Assembly (NCBI RefSeq): GCF_011009555.1
Contig: NZ_QXHD01000004.1
Coordinates: forward strand, 4,930,854-4,994,853
Reading direction: 5' to 3'
DNA from: Adonisia turfae CCMR0081
Lineage (GTDB): Bacteria > Cyanobacteriota > Cyanobacteriia > Phormidesmidales > Phormidesmidaceae
Length of the DNA: 64,000 nucleotides
The notes beneath the pieces are model-generated. The model worked only from the letters and a program-made list of their open reading frames with translations, did no database searches and was not told where the DNA came from. Shown one piece after another: positions 47,528 through 50,074 of the stretch; within the stretch, counting starts at the first letter, position 1; each line of letters opens with the position of its first letter. The translations under genes and the position numbers were made by a program.

Positions 47528-47558
47528 CTAAGCTATTCAACTAAGTTGGATAGCTTAG
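47528..47558. terminator. Hairpin between tolC-like gene and small convergent gene
   Basis: Arms CTAAGCTAT and ATAGCTTAG with an inner CAA/TTG pair around a 4-nt loop. It covers the stop codon of the minus-strand gene. No T-run. Probably marks the 3' end of one or both transcripts. Confidence 0.4.
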
Positions 47559-47879
47559 CTGTTCGGACATTGAGAGTTTGGAGTTGTCTGTGGTTGATAT
47601 CTCACCGCCACATAATTTCTCAATGACTTGATCAGCGGTCATGAGCCGTTTCAGAACAACTTGGCCAATTGGGTTGCCAGTCTCATCTTCAGGCAAGACT
47701 TCAACCATTAGTACATCCTCTTCGACTTGATATAACCATAGCTTTTCTGTGGCTTCTTCGATGTAAAGCCCTAGCTTGTTGATAATTGGTTTGCGCTGCC
47801 AGGCAATTTCATTCCAAAGGCCGCCAAACTCCCATACTCTGCCAGTTGTCCAGCCGTCGGACAGAAAAAAATATTTCAC
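47541..47879 (-). CDS. Conserved hypothetical protein
   Basis: 112 residues, no signal or membrane helix. Sequence is rich in aromatic residues at the start (MKYFFLSDGWTTGRVWEFGGLWNE) and then acidic (WLYQVEEDVLMVEVLPEDE). It reads like a small beta-rich regulatory or cofactor-binding protein. I do not recognise a family. The stop lies inside the hairpin shared with the convergent tolC-like gene. Confidence 0.7.
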   Translation of the reverse strand: MKYFFLSDGWTTGRVWEFGGLWNEIAWQRKPIINKLGLYIEEATEKLWLYQVEEDVLMVEVLPEDETGNPIGQVVLKRLMTADQVIEKLCGGEISTTDNSKLSMSEQLSYPT

Positions 47880-48000
47880 AGATCCTGAGTAAGGTCAAAG
47901 GTTTAATCGCATTATCTCTGGTCATGTTGTTTTTGACACGGGGTCGCTAAAATCTTGATGCTTTCTTATGGTAAGGACGGAAAAAGAAGCTGATTTTGAG

Positions 48001-48100
48001 TTCTGTCCGGACGTCAGGGGGGATGACATGGACAATTAGCTGGTAGATGCACCCTGATGTCTAACTCCTGAGCCCTTCTGGGACTTGGGAGCTTTTTTTT
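48001..48100 (+). ncRNA. Tandem small RNA candidate, copy 1
   Basis: Starts TTCTGTCCGGACG and ends in the terminator ACTCCTGAGCCC-TTCT-GGGACTTGGGAGC-T8. It has the shared core GCTGGTAGATGCACCC and TGATGTCT. The 5' hairpin (CTGTCC/GGACAA) has lost one pair against copies 3-5. A -10-like box is not evident here. Confidence 0.65.
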
Positions 48101-48165
48101 GCTAATTAATGCTGCTACTTCTTACCAAATAATGAGGGCCAGGTTGCTAGTAAAACTTGATTCTA

Positions 48166-48265
48166 TTGTGTCCGGTAGCGGGGAAGAATAGTATTGACAG
48201 TTCGCTGGTAGATGTATCCTGATGCCTAACCTATGAATCCTTGTGGGGCTTAGGAGTTTATTTTT
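48166..48265 (+). ncRNA. Tandem small RNA candidate, copy 2 (most divergent)
   Basis: Starts near TTGTGTCCGG; core GCTGGTAGATGTATCC then TGATGCCT. Terminator arm CCTATGAATCC pairs with GGGGCTTAGG: the A of CCTA and the T of TAGG changed together against the other copies, a compensatory change that supports RNA structure. TATTGT upstream is a possible -10. Confidence 0.62.
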
Positions 48266-48336
48266 GATCAACTCAATTACTTAATTAGATATGACGTTTA
48301 AAAAGAAGATTCAGTTGTAAATGCAATTTGATTTTG

Positions 48337-48434
48337 TTCTGTCCGGAAGTAGGGAGTAATGGCATGGACAGTTAGCTGGTAGATGCACCCTGATGTCTGA
48401 CTCCTGAGCCCTTCTGGGGTTTGGGAGTTTTTTT
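48337..48434 (+). ncRNA. Tandem small RNA candidate, copy 3
   Basis: Identical to copy 4 from TTCTGTCC through GACTCCT (about 68 bp). 5' stem CTGTCC/GGACAG closes a loop of about 21 nt. Terminator stem ACTCCTGAGCCC with GGGGTTTGGGAGT and then seven T. TTGTAAAT lies about 30 bp upstream, as in copy 4. Confidence 0.7.
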
Positions 48435-48525
48435 ATTGCCTGAAATCTAGATTTTAGTGCTATCAATTGATCAAAGATGGATCCAAATTTCTACTACTTA
48501 AGTTGTAAATAAAAATTGATCTTTA

Positions 48526-48624
48526 TTCTGTCCGGAAGTAGGGAGTAATGGCATGGACAGTTAGCTGGTAGATGCACCCTGATGTCTGACTCCTAAGCCC
48601 TTTTTGGGCCTGGGAGTTTTTTTT
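48526..48624 (+). ncRNA. Tandem small RNA candidate, copy 4
   Basis: Best promoter of the set: TTGTAA (48503-48508) and TATTCT (48524-48529), 15 bp apart, giving a likely start around GTCCGG. 5' hairpin CTGTCC/GGACAG; core shared; terminator ACTCCTAAGCCC with GGGCCTGGGAGT and eight T. Confidence 0.7.
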
Positions 48625-48708
48625 GCTAATTTTTTAGCAGCGAGATGTTAGCACCATTATTTGTGCTCAAATTGTGAGGTCTCACTGGTAAATAAAACTG
48701 ATGTTTTA

Positions 48709-48806
48709 TTCTGTCCGGAAGTCGGTAGGAGTTGTGTGGACAGTTAGTTGGTAGATGCACCCTGATGTCTGACTCCTGAGCCCTTTTGGGGCTTGGGAGT
48801 TTTTTG
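48709..48806 (+). ncRNA. Tandem small RNA candidate, copy 5
   Basis: CTGTCC/GGACAG stem kept while its loop has diverged (GGAAGTCGGTAGGAGTTGTGT). TATTCT box just upstream as in copy 4. Terminator ACTCCTGAGCCC with GGGGCTTGGGAGT and six T: a 12-bp stem including two G-U pairs. It is 206 bp before the ddl start codon. Confidence 0.7.
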
Positions 48807-49012
48807 TAATTGGCTGATAGCCACGGAGTATCGAGATTGCCTAATGGGTAGGTTGAGTCTGTGATAGGCTAACCCCTTAATAGGATTTTGGCGTTTCTGA
48901 TCCTCGGGCACAGCAACTTTTTATTTAGCCTTACGTAAATAGCGTTCGTTGTAGCTCGGTTTATTGATAAATCAGAATAACGTCCTTTTGAGATAAAAAG
49001 GAGCCTCACTTA

Positions 49013-50074
49013 ATGGCAAAGATGCGCGTAGGCTTATTGTTTGGTGGATGCTCAGGTGAGCACGAGGTGTCTATTTTCTCAGCCCAAGCAATTGCTCGAG
49101 GGCTAGAGTTGAAAAGTAATGCTGAGAAGTATGACGTGGTGCCGGTTTACATTCGTAAGGATGGCGCTTGGGTGATGGATGCCTACGATGTTCTGAAGTC
49201 GGGTAGTCCACTACTAGTAGCTGATGATCAAGAAGTTTTAGCAACGGAGCGTATACCGACACAGGTAGCCAATATTGATATTTGGTTTCCTGTACTCCAT
49301 GGGCCCAGTGGTGAAGATGGCACGATTCAGGGCCTATTTGAATTGATGCAAATGCCCTATGTCGGTTGTGGCGTCTTAGCGTCAGCTGTGGGTATGGACA
49401 AACTCGCCATGAAGTCTGCGTTTGCTCAGGTAGGGTTGCCTCAGGTGAAGTATATGGAAGTTTTGCGATCGCAAGTCTATTCCAACCCCTGTGTTTTCCC
49501 AAAGCTGTGCGACGATATCGAGCTTACTCTGGGGTATCCATGTTTTGTTAAGCCTGCCAACTTGGGGTCGTCCGTTGGTATTGCTAAAGTAAAAGATCGC
49601 CAAGATCTAGAAGCGGCTCTGGATAATGCGGCCAGCTATGACCGTCGCATCATTGTTGAGGCGGGTGTTGTAGCCCGTGAAGTTGAATGTGCCATTTTGG
49701 GAAATGACAATCCGAAAGCCTCGGTCATTGGTGAAATTAGCTTTGATGCAGATTTCTACGACTATGAAACAAAATACACGAGTGGCCAGGCTGATTTAGC
49801 CATTCCTGCATCACTGCCAGCCGATATTGTGACAGCGATTCAAGAACAGGCCATGAAAGCGTTCCAGGCAATTGATGGTGCCGGTCTATCACGGGTAGAT
49901 TTTTTCTATCTTGAAGACACAGGCGAAGTCTTGATCAATGAAATCAACACATTCCCAGGGTTTACAGCTACCAGCATGTACCCCATGTTATGGAAAGCTG
50001 CCGGTGTGGAGTTTGATCAGTTGGTTGATCGATTAATTCAGTTGGGTTTAGAGCGCACAGCGCGTAAATCCTAG
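49013..50074 (+). CDS. ddl: D-alanine--D-alanine ligase
   Basis: 353 residues, ATP-grasp fold. Motifs: [19 protein letters not shown] at the N-terminus, [16 protein letters not shown] near 95, [16 protein letters not shown] near 185, EVECAILGN and the final [18 protein letters not shown] that binds metals and substrate. It joins two D-alanines for the peptidoglycan precursor. Strong RBS AAAAAGGAG 10 bp before the ATG. The sRNA array lies directly upstream, so its last terminator must be passed or the ddl promoter lies in 48807-49012. Confidence 0.96.

Follow-up and report, generated by a model that had tools for sequence, protein, structure and literature searches.

The five direct repeats that lie upstream of ddl in Adonisia turfae CCMR0081 form a tandem array of NsiR1, a small RNA already known from cyanobacteria and studied as a regulator of heterocysts, the nitrogen-fixing cells. 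The array is real and belongs to an already-described RNA family, found here in an under-studied host. Its family identity, promoter architecture, co-occurrence with HetR and conserved neighbourhood were all established by computation. The explanation that best fits the evidence overall, and that we hold to be very probable, is that the repeats are separate genes with DIF1-type promoters, presumably driven by HetR, whose RNAs would pair with mRNAs.

Identity and Architecture of the Array

The window (the whole stretch of 64,000 nucleotides that was analysed) holds five direct repeats at 47980-48805, with spacings of 165, 171, 189 and 183 nt and 69-86% identity to the reference copy. The units share a near-invariant core, TGGTAGATGCACCCTGAT. 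The array is flanked upstream by a gene for an outer-membrane efflux protein and by a 112-aa ORF on the opposite strand, and downstream by ddl. The features are:

47541..47879, - strand: 112-aa ORF beside the array (ORF call; relatives in loci L050 and L053)
48006..48011, + strand: DIF1 (-35) motif TCCGGA of copy 1, at position -35
48041..48099, + strand: NsiR1 copy 1, predicted RNA (RF02399, 52.9 bits; fold -18.9)
48171..48176, + strand: DIF1 motif TCCGGT (one mismatch) of copy 2
48206..48264, + strand: NsiR1 copy 2, degenerate (RF02399, 24.1 bits, below the cut-off; fold -14.2, z -1.0; orthologue in G162 mutated otherwise)
48342..48347, + strand: DIF1 motif of copy 3
48377..48435, + strand: NsiR1 copy 3 (RF02399, 52.5 bits)
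48531..48536, + strand: DIF1 motif of copy 4
48555..48565, + strand: extended -10 region of copy 4, GGACAGTTAGC, which on inspection aligns with the conserved -12 to -2 pattern of the listed NsiR1 sites (n = 212)
48566..48624, + strand: NsiR1 copy 4 (RF02399, 54.5 bits)
48714..48719, + strand: DIF1 motif of copy 5
48749..48807, + strand: NsiR1 copy 5 (RF02399, 54.1 bits)
49013..50074, + strand: ddl, D-Ala-D-Ala ligase, downstream neighbour (Pfam PF01820/PF07478)

A Pfam search with the 112-aa ORF gave no match; its relatives are 75% identical in L050 and 71% identical in L053.

In a scan of the 64 kb, the Rfam family RF02399 (NsiR1) matched copies 1, 3, 4 and 5 at 52.5-54.5 bits, over a cut-off of 39 and with E values of 5.5e-8 to 1.7e-7, which places the identity of the repeat far beyond chance. 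The match spans all 60 model positions and begins at TGGTAGATG. An intrinsic terminator with a T-run is present in the same four copies (fold energies -18.9 to -23.9; z -2.0 to -3.6), and by sequence and fold each of them is predicted to give an RNA of about 60 nt that ends in this terminator. The first-pass annotation had proposed an undescribed small RNA, had compared it with NsiR1, and had named an Rfam match as the result that would remove its novelty. With the Rfam search run and four copies over the cut-off, the comparison proves apt, the units being not merely NsiR1-like but NsiR1, and the claim of novelty falls because the array units match RF02399. Other parts of that description hold up, namely the five tandem units, the near-invariant core (mutated in copy 2), its likely exposure for pairing, and the terminator with its T-run in copies 1, 3, 4 and 5.

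Copy 2 reaches 24.1 bits in a permissive search and misses the membership cut-off. It folds poorly (-14.2, z -1.0) and its core departs from the consensus, and the corresponding copy of the sister strain (G162) carries other changes. The paired changes in its terminator stem had been taken as compensatory; given the poor fold and decayed core, we ruled copy 2 out as evidence for selection on structure, and it looks instead like a decaying copy. The other four copies look functional.

Promoter Elements in Place of a 5' Hairpin

At least 119 loci with an exact core were found among the genome contigs, and together with the window and two further places of the host genome (L001 and L006) they gave 212 distinct sites, each taken with 60 nt upstream. 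Of these 212 listed sites, 206 have TCCGGA, with up to one mismatch, with its first base at -36, -35 or -34; each of five control windows gave 1-5 of 212. A further conserved block, resembling AGAACA, occupies -12 to -7. The DIF1 promoter class is described as having the consensus TCCGGA at -35 from the start site and as also needing an extended -10 (PMC6133370). All five window copies carry DIF1 with at most one mismatch, four of them exactly, and a block resembling the extended -10 region of copy 4 stands before every copy. Among the matches listed, 80 of the 119 named loci were sorted by their titles, with 39 unsorted. In the 46 non-heterocystous loci DIF1 is present at 56 of 57 sites, and in the 34 heterocystous ones (33 giving usable sites) at 91 of 95.

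The first-pass annotation had placed a CTGTCC/GGACAG hairpin at the 5' end of each unit. In the window, the DIF1 box gives part of the CTGTCC arm and the -10 block gives the GGACAG arm, which is contained in the extended -10 region of copy 4. Copies 3, 4 and 5 have exact arms, and those of copy 1 (GGACAA) and copy 2 (GTGTCC/TGACAG) are disrupted. Covariation was assessed in 15 copies from the ddl loci of the genus (15 of 16 full-length copies, one being dropped as identical; one further copy is cut by a contig end), and none of the six pairs of the 5' hairpin covaries: four are invariant and two vary only by unpaired cells. The terminator helix shows some covariation across the genus, both partners having changed in 3 of its 14 pairs. 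For the structure as a whole, few shuffles reached the observed value in three of the five measures (19, 5 and 11 of 500), and the other two measures do not stand out (124 and 432 of 500 as high). With no covariation, and with promoter elements in its place, we rejected the 5' hairpin; by its sequence, the element is a DIF1-type promoter and not RNA.

This bears on the extent of the transcript. The suggested start near GTCCGG, with a product of about 95 nt, conflicts with the location of DIF1 at -35, and the expected RNA is about 60 nt rather than 95. Each copy appears to be its own transcription unit with a terminator of its own. The TATTCT blocks of copies 4 and 5 are, on inspection, located just upstream of the DIF1 box and are therefore not the -10 element.

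A new family of RNAs of about 95 nt, starting near GTCCGG and carrying a 5' hairpin, would be in keeping with an inverted repeat that is exact in three of the five window copies and has arms nearly invariant across the genus. We consider it extremely unlikely, since RF02399 is matched along its whole 60-nt model, and the hairpin does not covary, is broken in two window copies and has arms that coincide with the DIF1 box and the -10. Moreover, the 5' arm CTGTCCGG occurs outside the window at only two loci (L072 and L117) among the 212 listed sites, as against 206 of 212 for DIF1.

Even less probable is a reading of the core as a micro-peptide (ATG CAC CCT GAT ...). A short in-frame stop is common (MHPDN* at 57 and MHPD* at 23 of the 212 listed sites), but 95 of the 212 are without a stop in the first nine codons, so length is not conserved, and action at the RNA level is documented in Nostoc (PMC9045159). 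We dropped this reading for want of a conserved peptide length.

NsiR1 and HetR Across the Class

The distribution of NsiR1 was surveyed in a sample of 388 genomes of the class, of which 201 have NsiR1 above the cut-off and 196 have HetR. Each of the 196 genomes with HetR gives an NsiR1 match (E <= 0.001), which in 194 of them exceeds the cut-off. Both are thus found in 194 genomes, NsiR1 only in 7, HetR only in 2 (each with sub-threshold NsiR1) and neither in 185. Five of the genomes with NsiR1 above the cut-off and no HetR match are incomplete or fragmented assemblies (G093, G243, G309, G365 and G383). Nine weak, sub-threshold NsiR1 matches in genomes without HetR are probably chance, because an E. 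coli control also scores below the cut-off. In the family of the host, an NsiR1 match was found in 60 of 60 sampled genomes, host included. NsiR1 follows HetR rather than heterocysts, and the array seems tied to HetR.

Two near-complete genomes, G006 and G021, have NsiR1 above the cut-off without a HetR match and are apparent exceptions to the pairing.

The HetP family, to which the documented target alr3234 belongs, is present in 12 of 12 genomes of family f32, which we infer from copy numbers and HetP genes to hold heterocyst formers, and in 2 of 10 other genomes tested, 7 of these 10 being from the host's own family. All ten carry NsiR1, which therefore cannot depend on an alr3234-type target everywhere. 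PatD (NF037954) failed as a heterocyst marker, being present in 20 of 20 genomes tested.

The literature on NsiR1 that we saw concerns heterocyst formers, save for an NsiR1-like RNA of Limnospira (PMC8400943) and PMC4365693, which does no more than cite NsiR1; we do not claim the wide distribution as unreported.

The Host Genome and the ddl Neighbourhood

The host genome (8.66 Mb, 17 contigs) is that of a close congener of Leptolyngbya sp. PCC 7375, and the Ddl of G162 is 99% identical to that of the window. Leptolyngbya is non-heterocystous. The genome has one HetR match, nifH over its family cut-off, two HetP-family genes, and a HetF homologue at C10:438222 (43% identity). Beyond the array it holds three other NsiR1 places, two above the cut-off and one below, and no ddl was seen among the ORFs of at least 120 aa around them. 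At the fourth NsiR1-like place, L180 (33 bits), inspection revealed no DIF1 motif.

At another of these places, the NsiR1 at about 5438 of L178 (C11:6041437) and a 637-aa ORF are divergently oriented, with the NsiR1 beginning some 140 nt upstream of the ORF start. The ORF product looks like a solute-binding protein by sequence, and a long 5' UTR, if present, would be antisense to NsiR1, as hetF is in Nostoc.

Could the array be a functionless relic of heterocyst regulation in a lineage without heterocysts? Copy 2 is decaying in both sister strains, and L180 is an NsiR1-like place without a visible DIF1 motif. Set against this are a core, promoter and terminator kept across many genera and the NsiR1 matches in 60 of 60 genomes of the family and in 196 of 196 HetR genomes, which make a relic very unlikely.

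In 8 of 8 genomes of the genus, ddl is preceded by one or more NsiR1 cores, and two further Leptolyngbya-type loci, L050 and L060, repeat the order efflux protein - NsiR1 - ddl. Across the 119 listed loci, ddl was found within the stretch analysed in 6 and a HetF-like match in 22, some of which may be other CHAT proteins. The array lies on the ddl strand, about 200 nt upstream, and it might therefore act in cis as a leader that attenuates or times read-through into ddl, as the gene order conserved through the genus and shared by L050 and L060 would allow. This is improbable, if slightly less so than a relic: each unit has a promoter motif and a terminator, NsiR1 stands at three further places in the same genome where ddl was not seen among ORFs of at least 120 aa, and only 6 of the 119 listed named loci have a ddl match in the stretch analysed. 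As a pairing target for NsiR1, ddl was rejected (-10.9, rank 66 of 78). Our preferred reading remains that of separate, presumably HetR-driven genes.

Candidate Targets

The 5' part of NsiR1 was screened for pairing against the start regions of seven selected genes, with 77 ORFs as background. Targets documented in Nostoc do not transfer straightforwardly to this host: no NsiR1 core was found within 1.5 kb of its hetF homologue, and its two hetP-like leaders give weak pairing (-9.4, rank 71 of 78, and -11.8, rank 57 of 78). We also set aside patX (-13.8, rank 38) and the leader of the host hetF, which reached -22.7 (rank 2 of 78) but only via a long internal loop and was given no weight.

The leader of the host hetR scored -22.9 (rank 2 of 78) and is the best candidate target in the genus by predicted pairing; hetR as a target is no more than tentatively suggested. 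In the five of five genus genomes examined (of the other three of the eight, two have no HetR match and one has split matches only), a 19-nt site at -29 to -11 before the ATG is complementary to NsiR1 through 12 or 13 Watson-Crick and 4 or 5 G-U pairs, with energies of -18.8 to -20.2 against the 18-nt core. On inspection, its four variable positions all stay paired via G-U exchange. The whole block of 30 nt before this ATG is conserved, so that conservation extends beyond the pairing site, whose mean unpaired probability is 0.42.

We extended the comparison to 80 leaders of 150 nt from 79 genomes (G362 giving two), hand-chosen out of the 196 HetR genomes. Their mean duplex energy was -14.63, against -12.56 (sd 0.54) for shuffled cores, with 0 of 600 shuffles as good, and 10 of 80 reached -20 where 0.75 would be expected, a count matched in 1 of 600 shuffles; the leaders are phylogenetically related, so that these shuffle counts overstate independence. 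Start codons were scripted (nearest ATG upstream of the conserved stretch) and may be off; in most leaders of the genus (g1) the scripted ATG lies 21 nt downstream of the one used for the -29 to -11 site. As hetR was one of seven genes of the host genome examined, the g1 result is a discovery sample. Without g1 (75 leaders), 1 of 600 shuffles was as good in the mean, and 7 leaders stood at -20 or below against 0.73 expected (5 of 600 as good). Without both g1 and f32 (66 leaders of 150 nt), 15 of 600 were as good in the mean and 24 of 600 in the count at -20 or below.

Leader length mattered. With the last 60 nt, 39 of 296 shuffles did as well as the observed mean and 138 of 296 as well as the genus medians, which is not significant; the corresponding numbers were 1 and 22 of 298 with 100 nt and, in the same length series, 0 and 6 of 298 with 150 nt. 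The modelled pairing signal of hetR thus appears to depend on leader length, and it is weak without g1 and f32. Leaders of 441 other genes had a mean of -12.73, with 18 at -18 or below as against 19 of 80 for hetR; this background comes mostly from other genomes, excludes NsiR1-holding, full-complement and N-containing leaders, and includes one leader (L087, -28.3) that lies partly antisense to an NsiR1 gene. No fixed position of the pairing site was found in the hetR leaders of other genera. The hetR site of f32 overlaps a TATACT-like sequence, possibly a promoter -10, and a good site is missing from several of the other f32 hetR leaders.

As a positive control, 30 HetP-family loci (24 usable) gave a mean of -13.4, with two at -18 or below and none at -20. 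Two ATG-TAT HetP leaders that resemble the description of alr3234 scored -18.9 and -16.4 at the start codon.

Complements of the 17-nt core with up to two mismatches were also sought in the eight genus genomes, giving 12 non-NsiR1 hits compared with 6 for a reversed control; of 10 of the 12 inspected, 9 were not at a start codon in the sense direction. One near-complement (C11:6439337-6439353; L169:1038-1054) immediately precedes the ATG of a small protein that may be secreted. It was chosen for the pairing screen because of this complementarity and scored -26.0 (rank 1 of 78); the sister strain G162 showed no counterpart at up to two mismatches, and the small ORF is a lead only.

Comparison With Known Systems

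Like NsiR1 of Nostoc sp. PCC 7120, the array matches the 60-nt RF02399 model end to end and consists of tandem copies, some of them divergent, with individual DIF1 promoters and an intrinsic terminator. It has 5 copies rather than 12, and it lies upstream of ddl on the same strand, whereas the Nostoc array lies upstream of hetF in the opposite direction. That antisense arrangement next to hetF, a Nostoc trait outside the Rfam model, is absent here. Unlike Nostoc sp. PCC 7120, the host is of a non-heterocystous group and has further single NsiR1 places elsewhere. Another close known system is RNA162 of Limnospira indica PCC 8005, described as a 57-nt RNA gene and an NsiR1-like RNA of a non-heterocystous filamentous cyanobacterium with hetR (PMC8400943).

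PatX, an RG(S/T)GR protein, is reported as accompanying HetR (Elhai and Khudyakov 2018, as cited in PMC7761841 and PMC12756182). It resembles NsiR1 in being reported alongside HetR in filamentous cyanobacteria, heterocystous or not, and in having a DIF1-type promoter, and differs in being a secreted peptide precursor and not an RNA.

Directly upstream of the host hetR (C10; L127:2370-2789, - strand), we observed a gene whose 139-aa product combines a signal-like N-terminus with nine RGSGR pentapeptides arranged in tandem repeats of about 12 aa. From its sequence, it is apparently a PatX-type precursor of a HetR inhibitor with multiplied signal units. The hetR loci of G162, G217, G353 and G169 have 9, 5, 5 and 4 RG(S/T)GR motifs, respectively. 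Other genera of the same family have 3-4 (5 loci); in other families, 7 loci have a single motif and 4 gave none. No report of multi-RGSGR PatX arrays was seen in the literature searched, which excluded Elhai and Khudyakov 2018. TCCTGA, a one-mismatch DIF1 variant, lies 60-62 nt before the patX ATG in 12 of 13 hetR loci (L127, L148-L152, L154, L157 and L163-L167, of which only L150 lacks it); these 13 do not include four further loci that have such an ORF.

Proposed Mechanism and Implications

In Nostoc, NsiR1 is described as having individual DIF1 promoters, as depending on HetR and as pairing with the start region of alr3234 (PMC9045159). The same source reports that NsiR1 overexpression raises HetR and gives hetF repression as affecting HetR accumulation. 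NsiR1 is characterised by induction on nitrogen step-down that depends on HetR and NtcA; for the present array, induction and mode of action are carried over from Nostoc by analogy. Each unit would be a separate gene with a DIF1-type promoter (TCCGGA at -35, extended -10), a product of about 60 nt and an intrinsic terminator. HetR, probably through HetZ, would switch these promoters on under nitrogen stress. The RNAs would expose the 5' stretch UGGUAGAUGCACCCUGAU and pair with ribosome-binding regions of target mRNAs, lowering translation, and copy number would set the NsiR1 dose.

If the hetR leader is a target, it would close a feedback loop. We offer, as a possibility that we think doubtful and that leans on modelled pairing, an ancestral HetR circuit of filamentous cyanobacteria that predates heterocysts, in which HetR (via HetZ and DIF1) drives NsiR1 and NsiR1 pairs with the hetR leader and tunes the translation of HetR, with the array setting the dose in this genus. 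A direct effect of NsiR1 on hetR could have either sign. In Leptolyngbya BL0902, PatX effects are described as basically independent of HetR (PMC11298460), a warning against transferring the Nostoc circuit unchanged.

What hetR and patX do in species that lack heterocysts has been called a mystery (PMC11298460). With a match in 196 of 196 HetR genomes of the sample, and with the same type of promoter in non-heterocystous lineages, NsiR1 may offer a small readout of HetR activity in those lineages. If NsiR1 pairs with hetR mRNA, this would add a post-transcriptional loop to the classic patterning circuit.
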